Positions 3,422 to 31,957 of a stretch of 33,422 nucleotides of DNA are shown one piece after another; within the stretch, counting starts at the first letter, position 1; every line of letters starts with the position of its first letter. The notes beneath the pieces are model-generated. The model had not been told where the DNA came from and searched no databases. It saw nothing but the letters and a program-made list of their open reading frames with translations. Origin of the DNA: Paracoccaceae bacterium (GTDB lineage Bacteria > Pseudomonadota > Alphaproteobacteria > Rhodobacterales > Rhodobacteraceae); assembly GCA_013042605.1 (NCBI GenBank), contig JABDPT010000015.1, forward strand, positions 1 through 33,422. The letters run 5' to 3'. Both the position numbers and the translations under genes were made by a program.

Positions 3422-4236
3422 GGTGGTGTCAGACCAATTCGAACCCATCTCTACATGGGCAGGATCACTGTCCCTTATTCCGCACAAAGGCCGCGCCACT
3501 GGGCCAGAGCGGCGGCACGGTTCAACTTGAAATTTGGTCTGGTGTAGAGACTGCGTTCCGAGTTGAAGAGGTTGTAAATAGAGGCATGAACGGCGGCGAA
3601 TTTCTGCAAACTTCGCATCCGCCGGAAACGGAGCATCGCCCGTTCTCGTCGTCGAAATGGCAGGTGTGAATTCTCTGCTCGGTTGTTCAGCCAACGACCG
3701 CATACCTGCCGGTTCACCGCACCGATCTCTTTCAGCGCGGCGCCATACGAGCGTAGCCGGTCCGTTACGATTACATCCGGCCGACCATGCTTACGCATTG
3801 CTTTCTTTAGAAATTTTAATGCGGCCTTCTTATCCCGTGTCTTCGTAACGAAGCTCTCCAGGACTTCGCCCTCGTGATCCACGGCCCTCCAAAGATAATG
3901 TCGCTGGCCGTTGATCTTCACGAAAATCTCGTCCAGATGCCAACGCCATCGGCTGGATTTCATACCCTCGATCCGTCGTTTCCGGATCTCCGCGGCGAAC
4001 ATCGGCCCGAACCGATGCCACCAATATCTCACCGCTTCATGACTGACGTCTATGCCGCGCTCGTGCAGCAGATCTTCGACATTGCGAAGAGACAGAGGAA
4101 ACCTGACGTAAAGCATCACCGCCAGGCGGATAACCTCGCGGCTCGTTTTGAAATAGCGAAACGGATCAGGTTTGGTCATCCAACGATGCTACGAAACCGC
4201 CCTGCCCGCCTCAAGCTGGTTTTGTCTGACAATGCC
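3422..4236 (-). mobile_element. IS6-family insertion sequence, copy 1 (815 bp)
   Basis: The ends are imperfect inverted repeats. The left end at 3422 reads GGTGGTGTCAGACCAA, and the right end, read inward from 4236, is GGCATTGTCAGACAAA; both fit the pattern GG-N3-TGTCAGAC-N-AA. The distance between ends is 815 bp, matching copies 2 and 3 (816 and 815 bp). No 8-bp target duplication is visible: flanks are TATGTGGC on the left and GCCACAAC on the right. Oddly, the flanks are nearly inverted copies of each other (TGTGGC inward on both sides), so the terminal repeat may be longer here. It holds one transposase gene. Confidence 0.85.
3475..4179 (-). CDS. IS6-family DDE transposase, copy 1
   Basis: A 234-residue transposase, full length for the family. 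An N-terminal helix-turn-helix-like part (about 15-55, 'LSLRNVEDLLHERGIDVSHEAVRYW') is followed by the catalytic core. The probable acidic triad is D83 in 'WRWHLDE', D140 in 'VIVTDRLRSYGAAL' and E169 in 'NNRAENSHLPFRRRER'. It catalyses replicative, cointegrate-forming transposition. By eye it differs from copy 2 at roughly 40 of 234 positions and from copy 3 at roughly 26, so the three are related but separately evolved rather than recent duplicates. The substitution 'NRQVCGRW', where copies 2 and 3 have 'DRQETGRW', is peculiar to this copy. It looks intact. Confidence 0.95.
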   Translation of the reverse strand: MTKPDPFRYFKTSREVIRLAVMLYVRFPLSLRNVEDLLHERGIDVSHEAVRYWWHRFGPMFAAEIRKRRIEGMKSSRWRWHLDEIFVKINGQRHYLWRAVDHEGEVLESFVTKTRDKKAALKFLKKAMRKHGRPDVIVTDRLRSYGAALKEIGAVNRQVCGRWLNNRAENSHLPFRRRERAMLRFRRMRSLQKFAAVHASIYNLFNSERSLYTRPNFKLNRAAALAQWRGLCAE

Positions 4237-18184: not shown

Positions 18185-19000
18185 GGTGCTGTCAGACTAA
18201 TTCGAACTCGTCTCCACTAGGACAGCAGACCTGTCCCTTATGCCGCGCAAAGAGCGCGCCACTCGGCAAGAGCGGAGGCGCGGTTCTGCTTGAAGTGGTA
18301 TCGGCTGGAGAGGCTGCGTTCTGTGTTGAAGAGGTTATAGACTGAGGCGTGGACGGCGGCGAACTTTTGCAACGTTCGCATGCGCCGAAAGCGGAGCATG
18401 GCTCGTTCCCGTCGTCGGAAAGGAAGATGTGAGTTTTCCGCCCGGTTGTTCACCCAGCGGCCCGTTTCCTGGCGGTCGACCATGCCGAGATCCCTCAATG
18501 CTGCACCGTATGACCGAAGCTCGTCCGTGACGAACACGTCGGCCCGCCCATGCTTCTTCATTGTTTTCTTGAGAAATTTCAGCGCAGCCTTCCTGTCTCT
18601 CGTCTTCGTGACAAAGCTTTCCAGGACCTCGCCTTCGTGATCTACAGCGCGCCAGAGGTAGTGTCGCTCGCCATTGATCTTCACGAAAACTTCGTCGAGA
18701 TGCCAACGCCAGAGGCTCGATTTCATACCCCCGATCCGGCGTTTGCGGATCTCGGCGGCAAACATCGGCCCGAAGCGATGCCACCAGAAGCGTACTGTTT
18801 CGTGGCTGATGTCGATGCCGCGCTCATGCAGCAGGTCCTCGACGTTTCTCAGCGAGAGTGGGAAACGAACGTACAGCATTACGGCCAGGCGGATAATCTC
18901 TTCGCTCGAATTGAAGTATTTGAACGGGTCACGTTTCTTCATCCGGGGACACTACCCAGTCCCCCTGCCCCGCAGCAAGCCAAGTTGCTCTGACAACGCC
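18185..19000 (-). mobile_element. IS6-family insertion sequence, copy 2 (816 bp)
   Basis: The left end reads GGTGCTGTCAGACTAA and the right end, read inward, GGCGTTGTCAGAGCAA; they agree at GG-N-G-N-TGTCAGA-N2-AA. It has the same orientation as copies 1 and 3. Flanking 8-mers (CCGCCAAG and CGATTGCG) do not form a target duplication, so the element arrived or was left here by recombination, or the original flank has been deleted, as the truncated DsbA-family gene suggests. Confidence 0.87.
18238..18942 (-). CDS. IS6-family DDE transposase, copy 2
   Basis: A 234-residue, full-length transposase with the probable triad D83 ('WRWHLDEVF'), D140 ('VFVTDELRSYG') and E169 ('NNRAENSH'), plus the Arg-rich 'FRRRERAMLRF' segment. 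It is the most divergent of the three copies: its N-terminus reads MKKRDPFKYFNSSEE rather than MTKPDPF, and about 17 percent of residues differ from copy 1 by eye count. No frameshift or stop is seen, so it may be active. Confidence 0.95.
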   Translation of the reverse strand: MKKRDPFKYFNSSEEIIRLAVMLYVRFPLSLRNVEDLLHERGIDISHETVRFWWHRFGPMFAAEIRKRRIGGMKSSLWRWHLDEVFVKINGERHYLWRAVDHEGEVLESFVTKTRDRKAALKFLKKTMKKHGRADVFVTDELRSYGAALRDLGMVDRQETGRWVNNRAENSHLPFRRRERAMLRFRRMRTLQKFAAVHASVYNLFNTERSLSSRYHFKQNRASALAEWRALCAA

Positions 19001-20807: not shown

Positions 20808-21622
20808 GGTGCTGCCAGACGAATGCGAACCCGTCTCCGCTAGGACAGTGACGCTGCCCCTTATGCCGCGCCAAGTGCGCGCCACTCGGCAAGAGCAGCG
20901 GCTCGGTTCAGCTTGAAATTTGGTCTGGTGTTGAGGCTGCGTTCCGAGTTGAAGAGGTTGTAAATCGAGGCGTGGACCGAGGCGAACTTCTGCAGACTTC
21001 GCATGCGACGGAAACGAAGCATCGCCCTCTCGCGTCGTCGAAACGGCAGGTGCGAATTCTCCGCCCGATTGTTCAGCCAGCGACCCGTTTCCTGCCTGTC
21101 AGCTGCACCTATCTCCTTCAGCGCCGCGCCGTATGAGCGCAGCAGATCCGTGACTAAAACATCGGGACAACCATGCTTACGCATTGCTTTCTTTAAGAAC
21201 TTTAATGCCGCCTTCTTATCGCGTGTCTTCGTCACGAAGCTTTCGAGTACTTCACCTTCGTGATCAACAGCCCGCCAAAGATAGTGTCTCTCGCCGTTGA
21301 TCTTCACGAACATCTCGTCCAGGTGCCACCGCCATCGACTGGATTTCATGCTTTCGATCCGGCGCTTGCGGATCTCAGCGGCAAACACCGGACCGAAGCG
21401 ATGCCACCAATACCGGACCGTCTCGTGACTGACATCGACGCCGCGCTCGTGCAACAGATCCTCGACATTCCGAAGCGACAGCGGGAACCGAATGTACAGC
21501 ATCACTGCCAGGCGGATGATTTCCGGGCTGCTTTGAAAGCCCTTGAATGGGTCAGGTTTGGTCATGCAGAGACGCTAAGAGGCCGCCCTGCCCGTCTCAA
21601 CCATAATCTTTCTGACAAGACC
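20808..21622 (-). mobile_element. IS6-family insertion sequence, copy 3 (815 bp)
   Basis: The left end reads GGTGCTGCCAGACGAA and the right end, read inward, GGTCTTGTCAGAAAGA; both are variants of the GGTGCTGTCAGAC end seen in the other copies. Its length matches copy 1. Orientation is the same as copies 1 and 2. No 8-bp duplication is visible (CGGCATTG and ATTGCCGG). The flanks are again roughly inverted relative to each other. Confidence 0.85.
20861..21565 (-). CDS. IS6-family DDE transposase, copy 3
   Basis: A 234-residue full-length transposase, closest to copy 1 (about 26 differences by eye). The probable triad is D83 ('WRWHLDEMF'), D140 ('VLVTDLLRSYG') and E169 ('NNRAENSH'). It starts MTKPDPFKGFQSS. 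The C-terminus reads 'AEWRALGAA' where copy 2 has 'AEWRALCAA'. It appears intact. Confidence 0.95.
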   Translation of the reverse strand: MTKPDPFKGFQSSPEIIRLAVMLYIRFPLSLRNVEDLLHERGVDVSHETVRYWWHRFGPVFAAEIRKRRIESMKSSRWRWHLDEMFVKINGERHYLWRAVDHEGEVLESFVTKTRDKKAALKFLKKAMRKHGCPDVLVTDLLRSYGAALKEIGAADRQETGRWLNNRAENSHLPFRRRERAMLRFRRMRSLQKFASVHASIYNLFNSERSLNTRPNFKLNRAAALAEWRALGAA

Positions 21623-21934
21623 ATTGCCGGGATTAATTCGATAATTCAACTGGTTGAGCGGCGTCGTGTGCAGCAAGTGTTCACCTGCCGATTGCTGGAT
21701 TTCGTATTGTTTAGCGTTCTTTCGCAGGATTGTCCGGTGAACAATATCTCGCGTTTTCAGTTGCGTCTCATACGACCCGATTGGCCAGGCCATTCTTGTT
21801 CTGGCACCGATCCTTAGGGTTTAGCAGCAAGGCGCATGAGGGAGATACGCCATAGCCCCGCAACGCCCAGAGGACAGCTTCATACTATTGGTATCGTTGT
21901 ATTGGCTGCCGAACCGATGGACCGATGCGATATG
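21623..21934. other. Region between IS6 copy 3 and the dipeptidase gene
   Basis: No separate gene was seen. It should contain the dipeptidase promoter. The dipeptidase frame remains open back to an ATG at 21836, but that N-terminal extension does not resemble the family. Confidence 0.4.
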
Positions 21935-23053
21935 ATGGACTATCACAAGGTGCGATCCACCTTTGGGGTGACTAAAGGGCAAGATTTATTGTCAGCTTCG
22001 ATTGGTTTCTTTGACGGGCACAATGATTTCCTTCTCCGCCTGATGAGAGCGGCCACTCCGCGGGAGGTGACCTGGCTCGGTGGCGGCTGTGGCGGGCACC
22101 TCGACTTGGCTCGCATGAAGAAGGCTGGGTTCATCGGAGGCCTGTTCGCGATCTTCGTGCCAACGGCCTCTTCTGGTTCGCCTCCGGACTTCAAGGCGCT
22201 AATGGCCCAGCAGCCTTTCGCCCTTCCGATGCCGCCTGAGATGGATGCACGCACCGCTCAACCGACTGCGCTGGCGATGGCTGGACTCATGCACTGGATG
22301 GCACGTGTCGCGCCCAATGATTTCGCTGTTTGCCGCTCCGTTCCCGAAATTCGGTCGGCTATTGATTCAGATCGGATCGCAGGCGTCATGCACATGGAGG
22401 GGGCAGAGCCGATAGCGCCCGACCTTGATGTGCTATATCTCTTTCATGAAATGGGGCTCCGATCGCTTGGCCCTGTCTGGAGCCGACCGACAGCTTTCGG
22501 ACATGGGGTACCGATGGCCTTCCCCGGAACGCCTGATACTGGACCCGGGTTGACCGGTGCGGGAAAGGACCTGGTCCGCCTCTGCAACTCGCTCGGAATA
22601 CTTGTGGACCTCTCGCACATGAACGAGGCCGGTTTCAACGACGTCGCGGCGATCTCCGATGCACCGCTGGTCGCGACACATTCCAATGCGCATGCGCTCT
22701 GCCCGTCGACGCGGAACCTGACAGACCGCCAGCTGAGCATCATTCGCGAGAGTGGCGGGATGGTCGGTCTGAACTTCTCGACCTTTTACTTGAACGCAAA
22801 CGGTACCTCTAATCCCAACACAGAGTGGGACACGATCGCGCGCCATCTTGATTATCTGATAGCGAAATTGGGCGAGGACCACGTTGGGCTCGGCTCGGAT
22901 TTCGACGGCTGCGTGGTGCCCGATCTGATAGGTGATGTGACCGGCGTACCGCGAATGTTCGAGGCGCTTGCGGAGCGCGGGTACGAGGACAGCCTCCTAA
23001 GGAAACTCGCGCGCGAGAACTGGCTCGCATGCCTTGACCGGATTCAGCGGTGA
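21935..23053 (+). CDS. Membrane dipeptidase-family (peptidase M19) metallohydrolase
   Basis: A zinc-dependent M19 (renal dipeptidase-type) hydrolase. Metal-ligand motifs are visible: HxD in 'FFDGHNDFLLRL', the bridging Glu in 'GVMHMEGAEPI', His in 'LVDLSHMNEAGF' and 'VATHSNAHAL', and Asp in 'VGLGSDFDG'. These enzymes cleave dipeptides and related amides, including beta-lactams in some cases. The chosen ATG (MDYHKV) gives about 372 residues, near the usual 350. The frame is open to an ATG at 21836 (405 residues), and a GTG at 21968 is also possible; none has a strong ribosome-binding site. It converges on the AroM gene. Its place beside hydantoinase-type genes suggests hydrolysis of an N-acyl or dipeptide-like intermediate. 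Confidence 0.85.
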   Translation: MDYHKVRSTFGVTKGQDLLSASIGFFDGHNDFLLRLMRAATPREVTWLGGGCGGHLDLARMKKAGFIGGLFAIFVPTASSGSPPDFKALMAQQPFALPMPPEMDARTAQPTALAMAGLMHWMARVAPNDFAVCRSVPEIRSAIDSDRIAGVMHMEGAEPIAPDLDVLYLFHEMGLRSLGPVWSRPTAFGHGVPMAFPGTPDTGPGLTGAGKDLVRLCNSLGILVDLSHMNEAGFNDVAAISDAPLVATHSNAHALCPSTRNLTDRQLSIIRESGGMVGLNFSTFYLNANGTSNPNTEWDTIARHLDYLIAKLGEDHVGLGSDFDGCVVPDLIGDVTGVPRMFEALAERGYEDSLLRKLARENWLACLDRIQR

Positions 23054-23809: not shown

Positions 23810-24868
23810 CTACTCCTTCAACAAAACCAGGTCAGTTTGTGCCCAGGACAACGCCACGGCTGTGCCAACGGTCATCGGGGGCGTACCAGTTGCATTGGCG
23901 GCTTGAGCCAGGAGGCGGTGGGCAGACCCTTCCAACCTGACACGATAAAGCGTTGCACCGCCAAGGTAGTTGACGCTTTCAATGACACCGTGAACGCCAT
24001 TAGAAAGGCCGGCGGCAGGACGGACATCAACCCGTTCTGGGCGCAGCGCAACCACACAAGCACCTTTCCCCCCTGATATCGGCGGGATCGGGGTTCCATC
24101 TTCCAACTCCCAACCCTCACTCCCCGGGGAAGGCCTGCAGGTCATGACGTTGGCGTCGCCGATGAAATCGGCAACGAAACGGCTTTCTGGCGTGTTGTAG
24201 ATCTCCGCAGGGGTTCCGATCTGTTCTACTTTTCCGTCGTTCATGACCGCCAGTCGATCGGACATCGCCATGGCTTCTTCCTGATCGTGCGTCACGAAGA
24301 CCGTCGTCAGGCCCAGATTTCGTTGCAGTTCCTTCAGTTCGAACTGCATCTGCTGGCGCAGCTTCTTGTCGAGCGCCCCAAGTGGTTCGTCGCAGAGCAG
24401 CACGGTGGGCTCGACCACGATGGCGCGCGCCAGCGCAACCCGTTGCTGCTGACCGCCAGACAACTGGTCGGGGCGTCGGTCGCCGTACCCTCCAAGAGAG
24501 ACAAGTTCCAGCGCCCAAGCCACCTTGCGCGCGATCTCGGCCTTGTCCATGCCCCGCATCCGAAGACCGAATGCCACGTTCTGATTGACCGAACGGTGCG
24601 GGAAAAGGGCATAGTTCTGAAAAACCATACCCATGTCGCGCTTGTGAGCTGGCACCCCAGTGATGTCGCGCTCACCAAGCAGAATCTGCCCGGAACTCGG
24701 TGTCTCGAACCCAGCGATCAAGCGTAGGGTCGTCGTCTTCCCGCATCCGGAAGGACCAAGAAGCGAAAAGAACTCTCCGGCCTCGATCCGGATGTCCACA
24801 GCATCGACGGCGCGCACGGCGCCGTCGAAGACCTTGGTTGCTTTCTTCAAGCTGATGCTTGCGCTCAT
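23810..24868 (-). CDS. ABC transporter ATP-binding protein, polyamine/PotA type
   Basis: A 352-residue PotA-type ATPase with every canonical motif: Walker A GPSGCGKTT, Q-loop 'MVFQNYALFPH', signature LSGGQQQR, Walker B 'VLLCDEPLGALD', switch 'FVTHDQEEAMAMSD', and a C-terminal TOBE_2 region ('VVALRPERVDVRPA'). It energises the adjacent two-permease importer. Its ATG overlaps the binding-protein stop (ATGA). Substrate cannot be set from the ATPase: PotA-like systems carry polyamines, but also amino-acid derivatives and other organic solutes. Confidence 0.93.
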   Translation of the reverse strand: MSASISLKKATKVFDGAVRAVDAVDIRIEAGEFFSLLGPSGCGKTTTLRLIAGFETPSSGQILLGERDITGVPAHKRDMGMVFQNYALFPHRSVNQNVAFGLRMRGMDKAEIARKVAWALELVSLGGYGDRRPDQLSGGQQQRVALARAIVVEPTVLLCDEPLGALDKKLRQQMQFELKELQRNLGLTTVFVTHDQEEAMAMSDRLAVMNDGKVEQIGTPAEIYNTPESRFVADFIGDANVMTCRPSPGSEGWELEDGTPIPPISGGKGACVVALRPERVDVRPAAGLSNGVHGVIESVNYLGGATLYRVRLEGSAHRLLAQAANATGTPPMTVGTAVALSWAQTDLVLLKE

Positions 24869-25917
24869 GCGCGGAAGATCCGGGCCACCCGCGCGTCGAT
24901 GGCATCCTTGTTAGCATTGTACCACTTCCAGTCGACCTGCACGAGCGTTGCCACCTTTTCCGGCGTGGTCAGCAGACGCTCCTGGTACTGGTCAGCCAGA
25001 ACCACCTTGCTGTTGGCCGGCGAATACCAGACGGCCTCCGCCATGGTCTTCTGCACGTCGGGACGCAGCATGAAGTCGATGTAGGCGTAGGCCAGTTCCT
25101 TCTTCTGACTGCCCGCGGTCACGCTCAGCACCTGCTCCAGCGCGAGCACACCCTCATTGGGAGACGCGAATTCGAGGTCCGGGTTCGCCTCGAGGTTACG
25201 CAGGACACCGCTGTCGTGGATGATGCCAAGCGCCACCTCGCCGCCGAGCAGCATCTTCTCCATCGAGCCGGTGAAGTCCACGAGCTTGACGGGCTTGAGT
25301 TTCTCCAGCGCGGCATAAGCAGCCTCAAGATCGTCGGGTCCCGATCCGTAGATTGAGGCCGTCATGGTCAGGAAGGCCTGGCCGAGGCTGTTGACCGAGA
25401 TCACGTAAGCGCCGCGCCTGTTCGCGTATTCGTCGAGCCACATGTCCGTCCAGGACGTCGGAGGCGCCGAGACGAGATCCTTGCGGTAGCCAATTCCGAT
25501 CGCGGAGGTAAACATCACCACGCCTGCGACCTTGTCGCTCTTGGCGTAGTCGTAGAGGTCCCCCATGTTCGGCACCTGATCGGACGGTACCTCGGGCTCG
25601 ATGAGGCCCATCTCTGACGCCGCCCATTGCTCGTTGTTGTTGGTGTGGAGCACGTCGTAGATCGGGTCACGGCGCGAACTGGCCTGCAGCTTCGGCAGAA
25701 AGGGGAAGCTGGTGTCGCGCTGCAGCTTCCCGCCGGTTTCGGCTTCGAACATCGCAGTCAGGTTCTTGTCGAACTCGTCGCCCCATTTGCCGCCCCAGCC
25801 GGTCACGTTCAGCGTGACGGCCTGGGCGTTGGCGATTTGCGGCGCTGCAAGCGCCATCGCACCCGCGGCAACTCCGGTCGAGAGCATTGTGCGTCGCGTC
25901 AGGTTCTTGTGGGTCAT
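24865..25917 (-). CDS. ABC transporter substrate-binding protein, polyamine/PotD-like
   Basis: A 350-residue exported binding protein. The chosen ATG at 25917 gives MTHKNLTRRTMLSTGVAAG and a signal ending ANAQA; the 'TRRTML' motif suggests Tat export. The ribosome-binding site AGGAGAG precedes it. The frame is open 18 codons further but has no such signal. The mature part ('VTLNVTGWGGKWGDEFDKNL', 'GIGYRKDLVSAPPTSWTDMW', 'GGEVALGIIHDSG') matches extracellular solute-binding proteins of the spermidine/putrescine group. Substrate uncertain. The neighbouring hydantoinase, DUF917 and dipeptidase genes hint at a cyclic amide or amino-acid derivative rather than a polyamine. Confidence 0.9.
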   Translation of the reverse strand: MTHKNLTRRTMLSTGVAAGAMALAAPQIANAQAVTLNVTGWGGKWGDEFDKNLTAMFEAETGGKLQRDTSFPFLPKLQASSRRDPIYDVLHTNNNEQWAASEMGLIEPEVPSDQVPNMGDLYDYAKSDKVAGVVMFTSAIGIGYRKDLVSAPPTSWTDMWLDEYANRRGAYVISVNSLGQAFLTMTASIYGSGPDDLEAAYAALEKLKPVKLVDFTGSMEKMLLGGEVALGIIHDSGVLRNLEANPDLEFASPNEGVLALEQVLSVTAGSQKKELAYAYIDFMLRPDVQKTMAEAVWYSPANSKVVLADQYQERLLTTPEKVATLVQVDWKWYNANKDAIDARVARIFRA

Positions 25918-25942
25918 TTGTTCTCTCCTGTTGGTGGGTGGG

Positions 25943-26725
25943 TCAAAGTTTCGCATAGGTCCGAAGCCCAACCGTCCGGTCGAGCCCGATTACGACGAGG
26001 ACGGCCAGAAGGATCGACACAATCGAGGCTGCGGCGATCGTCCCGTCGAGCGCAAAGCGTAGGTAGTTGAAGAGCGTGATTGGAAGGGTCTCGGTTCCTG
26101 GTCCGACAAGGAACAGCGAGACGGGAAACTGGTCGAACGAGACAATGAAGGCAAAGATACCGCCTGCAATCACCCCGGGTTTGATCAGAGGAAGTGTGAT
26201 CTCGAAAAAGACCCGAAGCGGCGAAGCGCCAAGATTGGTGGCCGCTTCTTCGAGCCTGGTATCGAAGTTCGCGAGCACCGCCAGCGTCGTCCGCACAACG
26301 TACGGCGTCGTGACGATCGTATGCCCCATCACCAGCCCCCACAGGGGACGCCCGACATCGATCAGCACGTAGGTTTGGAACAGCGCAAGCCCGGTGAGGA
26401 TGGCGGGCAGCATGAGCGGGGAGAGGACAAAGGCGGTTATCGTGGACGCACCCGGCAGATTCCCGCGGGCCAGCGCCAGCGCCGCCGTGGCGCCGAAGAA
26501 TACCGCCAGGACGGTTGTGTAGGCAGCGACCTTGAGGCTGAGCATCAAGGCTCCTGTGAAATCCGGAGAGTTGAAGAACTCCCGAAACCAGATCAACGAT
26601 ACACCCACGGGTGGGAAGTCGATGTAGGGAGAGGGATTGAGTGCAAATACGAAGACGATGGCAATCGGCGCGAGCAGAAAGATCATCGCTAGCACGTTGA
26701 TCGTCATGTAAAGAACGCGGCCCAT
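25943..26725 (-). CDS. ABC transporter permease, PotC type
   Basis: A 260-residue permease: 'MGRVLYMTINVLAMIFLLAPIAIVFVFALNPS' opening and the PotC-like 'WFREFFNSPDFTGALMLSLKVAAYTTVLAVFFGATAALALARG' segment, with six predicted membrane segments in all. The coupling motif lies in 'RLEEAATNLGASPLRVFFEITLPLIKPGV'. It forms the channel with the upstream PotB-type permease, from which it is separated by 4 bases. About 25 bases follow before the binding-protein gene. Confidence 0.92.
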   Translation of the reverse strand: MGRVLYMTINVLAMIFLLAPIAIVFVFALNPSPYIDFPPVGVSLIWFREFFNSPDFTGALMLSLKVAAYTTVLAVFFGATAALALARGNLPGASTITAFVLSPLMLPAILTGLALFQTYVLIDVGRPLWGLVMGHTIVTTPYVVRTTLAVLANFDTRLEEAATNLGASPLRVFFEITLPLIKPGVIAGGIFAFIVSFDQFPVSLFLVGPGTETLPITLFNYLRFALDGTIAAASIVSILLAVLVVIGLDRTVGLRTYAKL

Positions 26726-26729
26726 CGGA

Positions 26730-27644
26730 TCACTTCCTCCTCGTGACCGATACCAGCGCGCGATTGTACGCGGCGACCAGTATGAGCGAGATGGTCAGCA
26801 GGATCATGCCGAGGGCCGCGGCGTAGCTGACGTTGAACGACGACGACACCTGCTGGTAGATCATCACCGGCAGGGTCGTGACCTGGAAGCCGCCCATGAG
26901 GATCGGAGTCACGTAGCTGGAAATCGCCAGCGAGAAGACAAGCAGCGACCCCGCAACGATCCCCGGCAGCGACAGCGGGAGCGTCACCTCGAGGAATGCG
27001 CGAAACGGTGAAGCCCCAAGGCTGACTGCGGCTTGCTCCAGGCCGGAATCGATTCGTCCGATGACTCCCGTGAGAGTCAGCACCATGTAGGGAATGAAGA
27101 TGTGGGTGAGGCCGACGACGATGCCAAACTCATTGTACATCAGCGGTAGCGGTGACTCAATCCAGCCCAGAGCGGCAAGTGTCTGATTTATCACGCCATT
27201 ATCGGCCAGAAGCGTCATCCACGCGAAGGTCCGAACCACAATGCCCGTGAGCATTGGCGTCAGCACCGCCATGAGCAGGATTGCGTGGAGCGCCCGGCTG
27301 TGCACGCGCGCCATCAGATGCGCAATCGGATAGCCGATCAGGAGCGCTGCCACTGTTGTCCAAAGTCCAATGCGCAGCGTCGCCCAGAGAACCTCCCAGT
27401 TGTACCAGTCCCCGGCAAAGCGTGCATAGTGGCTGGCGGTGAACGTCACATCCTCTTCGACCACGGGGTTGCCGGTCAAGACGCTCATCACCGCCATCAA
27501 ACCGATCGGCAGCACGAAAAACAGCGCGAACAAGATCGCACAGGGCAAGATAAGCAGGCCAATCAAGCTGCCGGCGTCCGAACCGGACGCCGCTCGCAGG
27601 GGAGGCTCCGTCGGTTTGGATCCGGATGCGGGGGAAAGCGTCAA
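26730..27644 (-). CDS. ABC transporter permease, PotB type (TTG start)
   Basis: A 304-residue permease with a hydrophilic N-terminus followed by six membrane segments ('LIGLLILPCAILFALFFVLPIGLMAVMSV', 'VLWATLRIGLWTTVAALLIGYPIAHLMARV', and others) and the coupling motif 'GLEQAAVSLGASPFRAFLEVTLPLSLPGI'. The start at 27644 is TTG (MTLSPASG), supported by GAGGGG about 9 bases upstream; the nearby ATG at 27652 is out of frame and stops at once. It is the first gene of the transporter operon. A pseudo-palindrome at 27826-27842, shared with the promoter region of the DUF917 gene, lies about 180 bases upstream. Confidence 0.9.
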   Translation of the reverse strand: MTLSPASGSKPTEPPLRAASGSDAGSLIGLLILPCAILFALFFVLPIGLMAVMSVLTGNPVVEEDVTFTASHYARFAGDWYNWEVLWATLRIGLWTTVAALLIGYPIAHLMARVHSRALHAILLMAVLTPMLTGIVVRTFAWMTLLADNGVINQTLAALGWIESPLPLMYNEFGIVVGLTHIFIPYMVLTLTGVIGRIDSGLEQAAVSLGASPFRAFLEVTLPLSLPGIVAGSLLVFSLAISSYVTPILMGGFQVTTLPVMIYQQVSSSFNVSYAAALGMILLTISLILVAAYNRALVSVTRRK

Positions 27645-27825
27645 GACGGCATTCCCCTCACTCCATCTTCAAAACTGGGACGATGGCAAACCCGGTACAT
27701 TCTACCATCCTCGAAAGGCGGCATGGATTCCGTGGTGCGGGCAAATGTGGGTTGGTGGGCCGTGGTCATCGCAACTCCGACGTATCGGACATGGTACAAG
27801 GCTACAGGTGCAGAGACATCGTTCA

Positions 27826-27842
27826 ATACGGGTGATCCCCTA
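27826..27842 (-). promoter_or_regulatory. Candidate operator 1 (TAGGGGATCACCCGTAT)
   Basis: On the minus strand this 17-mer matches the one at 29259-29275 (TAAGGGCTAACCCTTAT) at 13 positions, including the GGG...ACCC arms. It lies upstream of the transporter operon, and the other copy upstream of the DUF917/hydantoinase operon. Shared placement suggests a binding site for the AroM-LuxR regulator encoded between them. Confidence 0.45.
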
Positions 27843-28142
27843 GTCCCGCGGCTGTTGTCCTGGATTGCGTCTCGTCGGATTGCCGTGCATGTGCCATTTC
27901 ATTCGGTGTGCCGGACGCCGTTGCAAAGGTTGCGGCACGAAGCATCAAACCCAGCCATTCGAGAGTGGCGCATTGGGAGGCTGGCCCACGTCCGGCTTGT
28001 CCGGCAACGAGCGTGGGGTTTCCATGCGGCAGGTGTTGGAGGCCTTGCGGCTCTTGGGCGTGACGACGTGGTGACAACGGTGCGGCTTTAGAGTGGGACG
28101 CGGTCGCCGGGGGGGATTTTGGGCATATCTCGGGGCGTTGCG

Positions 28143-28184
28143 GTCCGGCACCCCAGCGGAACGGCCGGACCACGCGTGCCGGAC
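28143..28184 (-). terminator. Possible hairpin downstream of the AroM-LuxR gene
   Basis: A perfect 9-bp inverted repeat GTCCGGCAC / GTGCCGGAC (28143-28151 and 28176-28184) with a 24-base loop lies about 30 bases after the regulator stop. No U-run follows on the minus strand, so rho-independent termination is doubtful. Confidence 0.35.
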
Positions 28185-28215
28185 TCACGCCGGAATGCAA
28201 CCGCCTTACAAGTCG

Positions 28216-29136
28216 TCAGGCGTAGCCGGCTTTCACCATCATGCGGATCAACGCACCGGACGAGGAAACCTGCATCTTCCTGAGAATACTCGAACGATGG
28301 ATTTCCACGGTTTTGTGGCTGATTTCCAGTTGCCGGGCGATTGCCTTGTTCGAAAGACCTTCGCAGACAAGTGACATGACCTGTCTCTCGCGTGACGTGA
28401 GCGCATCGACCTTGGACCGAAGCTCGCTCGAGGCAGCGATGGCCGACGTCTTGACCATGCTGCTGAGGATCAGTTGCACGGAGTTTGATACGATCCGGCG
28501 GGGCAGAATGACAGGTTTACCCGTCAGTTGGGCGACGAGCTGCCGGTCGGCTTCGCTATATCCGACCGAGTTCAATACGATGTACACGCAGTCCTTTAGC
28601 GACTTCGCGGCTTCGCGGAACTGATCGATGTCCTGGTGGGCGGCGTATGCGGACCGGGTTTCGAACAGCGAAAGCCCTGGCATCTCCATCTCGTGTATCT
28701 GTTGTTCGAGAGGAAAGATGATCCCAACCAAATCACCTTCCACCGCGACTGAGATTACCGCGGCATCAAGAGCGCGCTGCGCGTTCACCGAAGGGAAGGA
28801 GTTTTCAAAATCCCGAAAGATCCCGGTCGACATCAAGACGATGAGATCGAATTCATCGTCGGGTATCGCCGACAGCCGATCCTCTGCAAGTCGGCTGATC
28901 TTTCGTCGCGAGAGCTTGACCCACGACTTGTTCGAAAGCTGCGCGATGACAGTCGTATGGTTCGGTTCGGTCAACAGTGCATCGATTTCAGAAGCGCCTA
29001 GGCCGTCGAGAAGGCCCATTTCCCTGATTGCCGCCTGGGCACCCAACCCGCCTGCGATTTCGGACAACAAATCGGGCCTCGGCGATTGGCCTAGGGTGAC
29101 AAACAATATCCGTGGGCGCTGCGTCTCACTTTGCAA
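28216..29136 (-). CDS. AroM-domain / LuxR-type HTH fusion regulator
   Basis: A 306-residue two-part protein. Residues 1-230 are an AroM-family domain ('[18 protein letters not shown]', '[15 protein letters not shown]', '[16 protein letters not shown]', '[13 protein letters not shown]', '[18 protein letters not shown]'). Residues about 243-304 form a LuxR/GerE helix-turn-helix ('[20 protein letters not shown]' then '[20 protein letters not shown]'). The conserved AroM cysteine, present as C189 in the neighbouring stand-alone AroM ('LMDCMAY'), is serine here (S190, 'LNSVGY'). This suggests a catalytically dead domain reused as a ligand sensor. The start is TTG, with GAGG 7-8 bases upstream. It lies between the transporter operon and the divergent DUF917-hydantoinase operon and probably controls both. 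Confidence 0.87.
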
Positions 29137-29327
29137 ATTGCGTCCTCAACACGGTTCTGTTGGATGCCTCAAGGAGGATTTCTCTCCCTCTGCAGCCGTG
29201 TTTTTTCAAATGGACGTTCCCATAGTTGCCAGATGCGCGCAACTCGCACCTCTGGCTCTAAGGGCTAACCCTTATACCCGTCCTGCCTCCACTAGGCTAC
29301 CGTCACGCAAGTAGTGCGGAGGCAGAC
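29137..29327. promoter_or_regulatory. Divergent promoter region between the AroM-LuxR gene and the DUF917 gene
   Basis: A 191-base gap with no gene. It contains the inverted repeat TAAGGG-CTAA-CCCTTA at 29259-29274 and the GGAGG ribosome-binding site of the DUF917 gene just before 29328. Autoregulation plus control of the hydantoinase operon is plausible. Confidence 0.5.
29259..29275 (+). promoter_or_regulatory. Candidate operator 2 (TAAGGGCTAACCCTTAT)
   Basis: A perfect 6-bp inverted repeat (TAAGGG / CCCTTA) with a 4-base centre, 53 bases upstream of the DUF917 start. It is related to the 17-mer at 27826-27842. Symmetric GGG-N4-CCC sites suit dimeric LuxR-type helix-turn-helix proteins. Confidence 0.5.
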
Positions 29328-30407
29328 ATGGCAACAGAATTCGCTGAGGAGAGCATCGATGCACTGGCCATCGGTGCCTGGATCCTTGGTACCGGAGGCG
29401 GAGGAAGCCCCTATCTTGCGCAACTCAACCTCAAACGACTATACGAACAAGGCCGTCGTTGCAGTCTGATCCAGCCAGAAGACCTTGCAGATGATGATCT
29501 GGTTGCCGTCGTCTCTCAGATGGGCGCTCCGCTTGTCGGGCAAGAAAGGCTGGTGGATCCGGCGACCCTCGCCCGCGCCGTGCGCCTGATGGAGGAGTTC
29601 ATCGGTCAGCGCTTTGCCGCAATCATGACGGTCGAGATCGGAGGCGGGAATGCGCTGTCGCCGTTCCTCGCCGCCGCGTTGCTGGACCTGCCCGTTGTGG
29701 ACGCAGACTCGATGGGTCGAGCCTATCCCGAGGCGCAGAACACAAGCTTTGCAATCGGCAACCTGAAAATGTATCCGCTCAGTCTTGTCGACTGCCGAGA
29801 CAGCGAAGCGATCGTTTCGAAGGTTCCGTCTTGGGTCTGGATGGAACGGATTTCCCGCAAGATCACAACTGAGGTCGGCTCGGTCGCGTCGACGTGCAAG
29901 GCACCGCGTACCGGGGCGGAAGTGAAAGAGTGGGGCATCCTGCACACCGTCACCAAGTCGATCCGGATTGGCGAGGCTGTCCTGGAGGCTCGGCGCGCCC
30001 ACACAAACCCAATCTCTGCTATACTGAAACTGGAAGGAGGCAAGGAGCTGTTCGTCGGAAAGATCGTTGACGTTGACCGCGTCGCGACAGGAGGCTTCTT
30101 GCGCGGCAAGGCACGACTGGCAGGGCTTGGCGACAAACAGGGCGACGAACTGGTGCTGGAATTCCAGAACGAATGGCTGGTTGCCATGCACGGTTCCAAC
30201 CCGATCGCGATGTCACCCGATCTTATCTGCCTGCTCGACACAGACAGCGGCGAGGCCATCGGGACCGAGACCGTGCGCTATGGGCAGAGAGTGACGGTCG
30301 TTGCGCTTCCCTCGCCCGAAGTGCTCAGGACGGAGCAGGGACTGCGAAACGTTGGCCCGCGCGCGTTCGGCTACGATTTTGACTTCAAATCGGTGTTTGA
30401 GCGATGA
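29328..30407 (+). CDS. DUF917 family protein (S-methyl thiohydantoin desulfurase-like family)
   Basis: A 359-residue DUF917 protein: 'AIGAWILGTGGGGSPYLAQL' near the N-terminus, 'GAPLVGQERL', 'TVEIGGGNALSPFLAAALLDLPVVDADSMGRAYPEAQ' (the family hallmark) and 'GNPIAMSPDLICLLDTDSGEAIGTE' (approximate wording of the C-terminal part). DUF917 genes usually sit beside hydantoinase/oxoprolinase genes. One characterised branch is linked to S-methyl thiohydantoin breakdown, so ring-opening or desulfuration of a hydantoin-like compound is possible, but the precise reaction is unknown. A strong GGAGG site precedes the ATG. The stop overlaps the next start (ATGA). Confidence 0.88.
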   Translation: MATEFAEESIDALAIGAWILGTGGGGSPYLAQLNLKRLYEQGRRCSLIQPEDLADDDLVAVVSQMGAPLVGQERLVDPATLARAVRLMEEFIGQRFAAIMTVEIGGGNALSPFLAAALLDLPVVDADSMGRAYPEAQNTSFAIGNLKMYPLSLVDCRDSEAIVSKVPSWVWMERISRKITTEVGSVASTCKAPRTGAEVKEWGILHTVTKSIRIGEAVLEARRAHTNPISAILKLEGGKELFVGKIVDVDRVATGGFLRGKARLAGLGDKQGDELVLEFQNEWLVAMHGSNPIAMSPDLICLLDTDSGEAIGTETVRYGQRVTVVALPSPEVLRTEQGLRNVGPRAFGYDFDFKSVFER

Positions 30408-31957
30408 GACGGATCGGAATTGATGTCGGGGGAACGAACACGGACGCCGTGCTACTCGACGGCCATCGCGTCCTTGCCTCGGTCAAGGTCCCTACCACTG
30501 CGGACGTAATGACCGGGGTCGTCGGAGCGACCCGTCGCGTGCTTGAGGGTGACCAGAGCCCTCGAAACGGCGCTGCGACCGCCATAGATGCGGTGATGCT
30601 GGGGACGACGCATTTCACGAATGCAGTCGTTGAGCGCGCCAATCTCGAACGCATCGCCGTTATTCGTATTTCGCTGCCGGCTTCGGCTTCCCTGCCACCG
30701 ACAGTCGACTGGCCAGCCGATATCCGACACGCGGTGGATCCGATGATCTTCATGGTCGCGGGGGGACACGAATACGACGGTCGGCCGCTTGTCCCTCTGG
30801 ACCGCCAGGCTGTCGTTGAGGCTGCTCATAAGATCGGCGAGGCCGGGATTCGCAGCGTTGCAATCAACGCACTCTTTTCCCCTCTAACGACCGAGTGCGA
30901 GGACGAGGCCGCTGATATCGTTCGATCGATCGTTCCCGAGGTGCGCATCACCCGGTCCAACACACTGGGGCGCATCGGCCTTCTTGAACGAGAGAACGTC
31001 GCCATGCTGAATGCGGCGCTACAGAGCATCGGTCGTAAGACCGTCGACGCATTCGGACAGGCCTTGACGGAAGCAGGAATAGACGCGCCGTTCTATCTGA
31101 CACAGAATGACGGGACTGTCGTGATGGCCGAGATTGCCGCGCAAAGCCCGGTCTACTCCTTCGCTTCCGGACCAACAAACTCCATGCGGGGCGCGGCCCT
31201 CCTGACCGGCCTGCACGATGCCATGGTCGCGGATGTCGGAGGGACCACGACGGACATCGGTTGTCTGATCAACGGTTTTCCGAGAGAGGCGAACAACATC
31301 GTCGAAGTGGGCGGTGTGCGGACGTTGTTCCGAATGCCTGACCTTCTGCCGATCGGATTGGGGGGTGGCTCCATCGTCGATCCTGAGAACGATCGGATCG
31401 GGCCGCGCAGCGTCGGATACCGCATCACGCAGGAGGCGCTTGTGTTCGGCGGCTCGACGCTGACCGCGACTGATCTCGCCGTTGCGACCGGCCACGCCGA
31501 CATTGGCGACCGGTCACTTTTGCGGAACCTGGACCTCGCACTGGTTCGACACCTTCTCGCACGGACGGTCACAATGCTGGAAGAGAACGTTGACCGCATG
31601 AAGACTTCCCCCGAAGCAGTGGATCTGATCGCCGTCGGCGGCGGTGCGTTTCTGATCCCAGACAAACTCGCCGGTGTCGCACGGGTCCATCGGGTCGAGC
31701 ACGCTGACGTTGCCAATGCAATCGGTGCTGCCATGGCGCAAGTCTCGGGCGAAGTTGATCAGGTCTTCAGCGGCGTATCGCGCGACGAGGCCCTGTCCGA
31801 AGCCGAACGCATTGCGAACGATCGAGCTCGGGAGGCCGGCGCACGCCCAGAGAGCCTGAAGACAATTGAGGTCGATGATATCCCAATTGCCTATCTTCCA
31901 GGCGGGGCCCGCAGGGTCCGCGTTCGCGTCGTCGGGGATATTGCTCCACAAGAATGA
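30404..31957 (+). CDS. Hydantoinase/oxoprolinase family protein (HyuA-like)
   Basis: A 517-residue protein with the ASKHA-type ATP-binding signatures of hydantoinase A/oxoprolinase: N-terminal 'RIGIDVGGTNTDAVLLDG' (4-21), 'MLGTTHFTNAVVER' and 'NALFSPLTTECEDEAADIV', then the second phosphate motif 'AMVADVGGTTTDIGCLING' and 'PIGLGGGSIVD'. It is the short form (about 520 residues) that pairs with DUF917 rather than with a HyuB subunit. ATP-dependent opening of a cyclic amide (hydantoin, oxoproline or similar) is the family reaction. Translation is coupled to the DUF917 gene by ATGA overlap. No HyuB is in the window. Confidence 0.9.
   Translation: MRRIGIDVGGTNTDAVLLDGHRVLASVKVPTTADVMTGVVGATRRVLEGDQSPRNGAATAIDAVMLGTTHFTNAVVERANLERIAVIRISLPASASLPPTVDWPADIRHAVDPMIFMVAGGHEYDGRPLVPLDRQAVVEAAHKIGEAGIRSVAINALFSPLTTECEDEAADIVRSIVPEVRITRSNTLGRIGLLERENVAMLNAALQSIGRKTVDAFGQALTEAGIDAPFYLTQNDGTVVMAEIAAQSPVYSFASGPTNSMRGAALLTGLHDAMVADVGGTTTDIGCLINGFPREANNIVEVGGVRTLFRMPDLLPIGLGGGSIVDPENDRIGPRSVGYRITQEALVFGGSTLTATDLAVATGHADIGDRSLLRNLDLALVRHLLARTVTMLEENVDRMKTSPEAVDLIAVGGGAFLIPDKLAGVARVHRVEHADVANAIGAAMAQVSGEVDQVFSGVSRDEALSEAERIANDRAREAGARPESLKTIEVDDIPIAYLPGGARRVRVRVVGDIAPQE

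Follow-up and report, generated by a model that had tools for sequence, protein, structure and literature searches.

Within the window (the whole stretch of 33,422 nucleotides that was analysed), a minus-strand gene joins an N-terminal AroM domain to a C-terminal GerE helix-turn-helix and lies between a divergent DUF917-HyuA gene pair, from which only a short intergenic region separates it, and an operon encoding an ABC transporter together with a stand-alone AroM protein (Table 1). The original prediction had assigned precisely these two domains to the gene, and Pfam matches both: the AroM profile scores 143 bits (curated cut-off 23.8) with its positions 3-215 of 219 covered, and the GerE profile PF00196 scores 74 bits at the C-terminus. 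AroM is the sole N-terminal Pfam match, i.e. the fusion has neither a receiver nor an acyl-homoserine-lactone domain in this place, and in a PDB sequence comparison FixJ (1x3u) matches its GerE domain with E=7.8e-14. The M19 dipeptidase gene further along possibly belongs to the same pathway.

Table 1. Genes, domains, residues and predicted regulatory elements of the window
Feature	Position	Strand	Basis
M19 dipeptidase	21836..23053	+	PF01244
Stand-alone AroM with C99 and C189	23130..23804	-	PF07302 E=6.7e-58
ABC ATPase, PotA-like	23810..24868	-	PF00005 + PF08402; TIGR01187 above cut-off
ABC solute-binding protein, polyamine-type	24865..25971	-	PF13416
ABC permease 2	25943..26725	-	ORF; family by eye
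ABC permease 1, opening the operon that follows operator 2	26730..27644	-	ORF; family by eye
-10-like TAGCCT, 22 nt after operator 2	27799..27804	-	
Operator 2 (predicted), TAGGGGATCACCCGTA (minus strand), ahead of the ABC-AroM operon	27827..27842	-	
AroM-GerE fusion gene, 306 aa, TTG start	28216..29136	-	Pfam AroM + GerE; >50 homologous fusions
GerE/LuxR-type helix-turn-helix, residues 245-300, FixJ/NarL-like	28237..28404	-	PF00196 E=6.4e-21
Ser190 of the fusion, second predicted catalytic Cys position (C189 in stand-alone AroM)	28567..28569	-	
Ser103 of the fusion, first predicted catalytic Cys position (C99 in stand-alone AroM)	28828..28830	-	
AroM domain with racemase fold (residues 12-220), predicted sensor	28477..29103	-	PF07302 E=9.8e-42
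Operator 1 (predicted), TAAGGGCTAACCCTTA, 7-2-7 inverted repeat	29259..29274	+	fixed place in 39/44 loci
-10-like TACCGT, 23 nt after operator 1	29298..29303	+	
DUF917/S-Me-THD-like protein, divergent from the fusion	29328..30407	+	PF06032 + PF20906
Hydantoinase/oxoprolinase A-like protein (HyuA)	30404..31957	+	PF05378 + PF01968

Could such a fusion be a product of the assembly? Whole-protein searches were dominated by GerE-only matches, and the AroM part was therefore used as the query in later searches. An assembly or sequencing artefact is ruled out by a full-length paralogue (65% identical) that the genome carries on another contig, C159, by full-length fusions on the complete plasmids of Neorhizobium sp. 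NCHU2750, Ketogulonicigenium vulgare and Shinella sp. HZN7, and by the fusions that one contig scan returned from 38 named genomes (Rhizobiaceae, Mesorhizobium, Sulfitobacter, Microvirga, Methylobacterium and MAGs). Homologues with the AroM + GerE architecture, on whose existence the original prediction depended, thus occupy more than 50 Alphaproteobacterial loci; both domains are present in all 25 members scanned with Pfam, and the existing annotation of these fusions reads just 'AroM family' or 'hypothetical'. One of the 38, that of Mesorhizobium sediminum (L115, 6869-7839), is split over two overlapping frames by a frameshift or sequencing error. The AroM domain is sporadic in the class (15 of 385 genomes in unbiased samples) and, among 248 genomes of the window's own family, has a match above the Pfam cut-off in the window genome only; since, in addition, the closest tree neighbour of the window protein comes from Mesorhizobium sp. 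Z1-4, horizontal transfer of the fusion is suggested. The paralogous cluster (L057 1040-5142, on contig C159) adjoins integrase- and relaxase-like genes, as judged by eye, suggesting a mobile element, and parts of the window itself are flanked by three very similar 234-aa IS-transposase-like ORFs (3475-4179, 18238-18942 and 20861-21565).

In its AlphaFold model (pLDDT 83.6) the fusion adopts the two-subdomain alpha/beta racemase fold: residues 7-228 match both the Pyrococcus hydantoin racemase 2eq5 (Z 16.7 over 190 residues) and the allantoin racemase 5lg5 (Z 15.6), while the C-terminus matches the DNA-binding domains of StyR and NarL, the latter in the NarL-DNA complex 1je8 with Z 13.2 and an rmsd of 1.0 over 67 residues. 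For the model of the stand-alone AroM (pLDDT 91.8), 2eq5 is likewise top by Z (17.0). The fusion is thus predicted to share the fold of the hydantoin/allantoin/Asp-Glu racemases, at an identity of about 15%, but it lacks the catalytic cysteine pair of that superfamily, both predicted positions being serine. That the stand-alone protein's C99 and C189 would form this pair is suggested by the weak profile alignment in which C99 falls on a 2eq5 cysteine (E=0.13), by the position of both residues after corresponding strands and by their invariance. Searching the PDB by sequence with the one stand-alone AroM as query gave no matches, and a comparison of sequence profiles with the Shinella racemase yielded too faint a signal to be usable.

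What might the fusion bind on the DNA? Two DNA sites had been proposed along with the domains, and both are real, operator 1 being a perfect match to the 16-bp inverted repeat TARGGG-N4-CCCYTA and operator 2 deviating from it by one mismatch. Before DUF917, the repeat occupies one position in 39 of the 44 core loci (the window, its paralogue, G104, three plasmids and 38 contigs) with 11-12 of 12 matches, as against a mean best score of 8.1 in shuffled regions, and the intergenic regions between fusion and DUF917, which are otherwise unalignable, share essentially the operator, a -10-like element and the ribosome-binding region. A TANNNT element follows the operator at +23/24 nt in 37 of these 39 loci (background in these regions, 0.0086 per position), and in most of them the DUF917 ATG follows at +53/54. 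Second copies of the operator precede the stand-alone AroM gene in most Rhizobiaceae, Microvirga, Methylobacterium and G104, and the M20 hydrolase gene in Ketogulonicigenium; operator 2 of the window, before the ABC-AroM operon, has a counterpart in Mesorhizobium Z1-4, and all 17 second-copy sites examined have TANNNT at +22-24. The two Methylobacterium loci carry the motif before AroM and have no copy before DUF917, and it is missing from the intergenic regions searched in Shinella, two MAGs and the deepest fusion branches. Deep-branch (f41) loci L037, L132 and L134-L136 share a conserved sequence of another kind, GTAAGGGCTYTTACGTAT, in the intergenic region that separates a fusion from a divergently oriented stand-alone AroM; it may represent a variant operator. 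The relaxed motif TANGGGNNNNCCCNTA occurs at three places in the 3.54-Mb genome, a count that is at chance level, given that a reversed control pattern likewise occurs three times; its significance lies in the places, namely the two window sites and the region before the DUF917 gene of the paralogue, with no copy elsewhere. Symmetrical control of both divergent genes is unsupported, as in none of the 39 loci does a -10-like TANNNT lie at equal spacing towards the fusion gene.

The layout just described bears comparison with NarL, which binds inverted heptamers 2 bp apart ('7-2-7'), e.g. TACCCCTAAAGGGGTA (PMC4549865), and which alone activates ogt1052 from a site centred 32 bp upstream of the -10 element, at position -44.5 (PMC9314961). 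The likeness to NarL/FixJ extends from the GerE domain to the 16-bp 7-2-7 repeat with its TA...TA ends and to the spacing, the centre of the repeat lying 30-32 bp upstream of the -10-like element. The half-site, by contrast, is TARGGG rather than the TACCCC of NarL, and the fusion has AroM in place of a phosphorylated receiver, which would make it a one-component regulator that needs no kinase. An alternative interpretation of the same layout is that the fusion is a repressor relieved by ligand, covering the -35 region and blocking RNA polymerase until the compound arrives. The operator does overlap the expected place of the -35 element, and NarL and other such LuxR-family proteins are also able to repress (PMC4549865); we nevertheless consider repression unlikely, because the fixed spacing between site centre and -10 element is that of NarL class-II activation and because the aligned consensus holds no conserved -35 hexamer apart from the operator, so that the promoter looks activator-dependent.

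The fusion is divergent from DUF917-HyuA in all 44 core loci and, among the 10 fusions found at nine loci of deeper branches, in nine (once across a gap of ~1.9 kb), the tenth being divergent from a stand-alone AroM. Transporters vary by locus (polyamine-type ABC, peptide ABC, OPT), as do the M19/M20 peptidases. In the window, about 560 bp (27650-28215) hold no clear gene where most relatives have a stand-alone AroM of the 'HCMGY' type, which would fit a loss or replacement of that gene. A stand-alone AroM also belongs to 40 of the 44 core loci, and enzymes of the AroM/racemase fold are often dimeric. Is it then conceivable that the AroM part of the fusion responds to no free ligand at all and instead heterodimerises with the stand-alone enzyme, whose state would control the DNA-binding part? 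We regard this as improbable, since no AroM with which the fusion could pair lies near it in Ketogulonicigenium, in Shinella, in Sulfitobacter or at several loci of the deep branches.

The original prediction had noted the replacement of a conserved cysteine by serine in the fusion, which is correct but understated, as both predicted catalytic cysteines are serine. Among 133 distinct AroM domains, both cysteines are present in 63 of the 72 stand-alone proteins, and seven of the enterobacterial type have just the second; of the two stand-alone records left over, one (L046) is degenerate and the other is the front half of the broken L115 fusion. Cysteine is absent from both positions in all 61 fusion records, the residue pairs being SS (53), TS (3), MS (2) and SA (2), plus one fragment with Ser. 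The first position is thus Cys in every non-enterobacterial full-length stand-alone AroM and in no fusion, and the second is Cys in every full-length stand-alone AroM except the degenerate L046 and Ser or Ala across the fusions. One of the contig-scan patterns ended in 'ST' at the first Cys position, and the fusions obtained with these patterns are therefore no independent sample for the Cys pattern; the 25 fusions found without patterns touching the Cys site likewise have no Cys at either position. When non-redundant sets of 28 fusions and 33 non-enterobacterial stand-alone AroMs were compared column by column, S103/C99 and S190/C189 were the sole conserved columns that switch cleanly. P163, M187 and M190 (stand-alone AroM numbering) are conserved in the stand-alone proteins and lost in the fusions, and the G16-Q17-x-P19-R20 motif, G41, L43, D44, G105, G138, P142, Q146 and P208 are retained. 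The enterobacterial proteins (L066-L072, the E. coli type) have Ser at the first Cys position and keep the second Cys, and to judge from this pattern they too may differ from ordinary two-cysteine racemases. That the fusion domain is still an enzyme, working through other residues as part of a bifunctional trigger enzyme, is very hard to credit: the active-site framework is mostly conserved in fusions and the first Cys is missing in enterobacterial AroM too, but no fusion retains either cysteine, and in several Ala or Met stands where the others have Ser.

How often did this change occur? In a tree of 61 AroM domains, including 26 representative fusions and calculated with the two cysteine columns left out, a single branch (99/96 support, 98% of bootstrap trees) separates all 26 fusions from the rest, the fusion state maps onto the tree with one change, and the fusion clade adjoins the stand-alone 'HCMGY' type. 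By this phylogeny, the fusion arose once and both cysteines are missing throughout its clade; because all fusions descend from one event, the correlation between fusion and cysteine loss counts as a single evolutionary observation and not as 61. Pfam assigns the N-domain to AroM and the tree places it inside the family (PF07302; E. coli AroM), from which it differs in having lost both cysteines and gained a DNA-binding domain. The fusion is, on these comparisons, an AroM descendant, yet no ordinary AroM enzyme.

With a probability of roughly three in four, we read the fusion as a one-component activator with a dead-racemase ligand sensor, the DUF917-HyuA and ABC-AroM operons being its predicted targets. 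This reading follows from the NarL-like length and symmetry of the repeat, from the distance between its centre and the -10-like element and from the FixJ/NarL-like GerE domain. What the ligand is, that it induces dimerisation, that the protein binds the site and that it activates instead of repressing are inferences on our part, and the proposed sequence of events would be as follows. The AroM-derived N-domain, deprived of both catalytic cysteines and retaining the rest of the active-site framework, would bind, without converting it, a compound that enters the neighbouring AroM/DUF917/HyuA pathway as substrate or leaves it as product, probably a hydantoin-like or another cyclic amide. The ligand held in the dead-racemase domain would free or order the GerE dimer, the FixJ/NarL-type domains would dimerise on the 16-bp repeat, and the bound dimer would recruit RNA polymerase from about position -43. 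The divergent DUF917-HyuA operon would thereby be activated, and the ABC transporter-AroM operon likewise through the second site. The genes presumably controlled would serve the uptake and processing of a ring-shaped compound. The earlier proposal of an enzyme-derived ligand sensor that governs genes for the same compound thus gains comparative support from the clade, the cysteine loss with the remaining active-site framework retained, the linkage to DUF917, HyuA and AroM, and the operator-promoter unit.

LuxR-type one-component regulators are an already known kind of protein. Enzyme-derived sensors are known as well from MocR/GabR (PMC6917764, PMC8739950), which likewise combine a metabolic enzyme fold with a DNA-binding domain and control genes for related compounds. 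These, however, consist of an aminotransferase fold and a GntR-family winged helix, whereas the fusion consists of a racemase fold and a LuxR-type helix-turn-helix in the reverse domain order, and among the papers searched none describes AroM joined to LuxR/GerE. Both DUF917 and AroM are described as experimentally uncharacterised, their hydantoinase and racemase functions being predicted (PMC11055893).

On balance, we favour the wider view that a racemase stripped of both cysteines became, in a single origin, the sensor of a group of LuxR-type one-component activators, that this sensor recognises the substrate handled by its living enzyme relative within a cluster for hydantoin-like catabolism, and that its inducer would reveal the substrate of AroM/DUF917. 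The fusions offer a clean case of a transition from enzyme to sensor, with one origin and exactly two clean switches among the conserved positions, in which the surviving AroM enzyme apparently remains in the predicted regulon of its sensor relative. With a regulator made from AroM and an exactly located operator-promoter unit at hand, the question of what AroM binds becomes a reporter assay, and the inducer should name the substrate of the AroM family.
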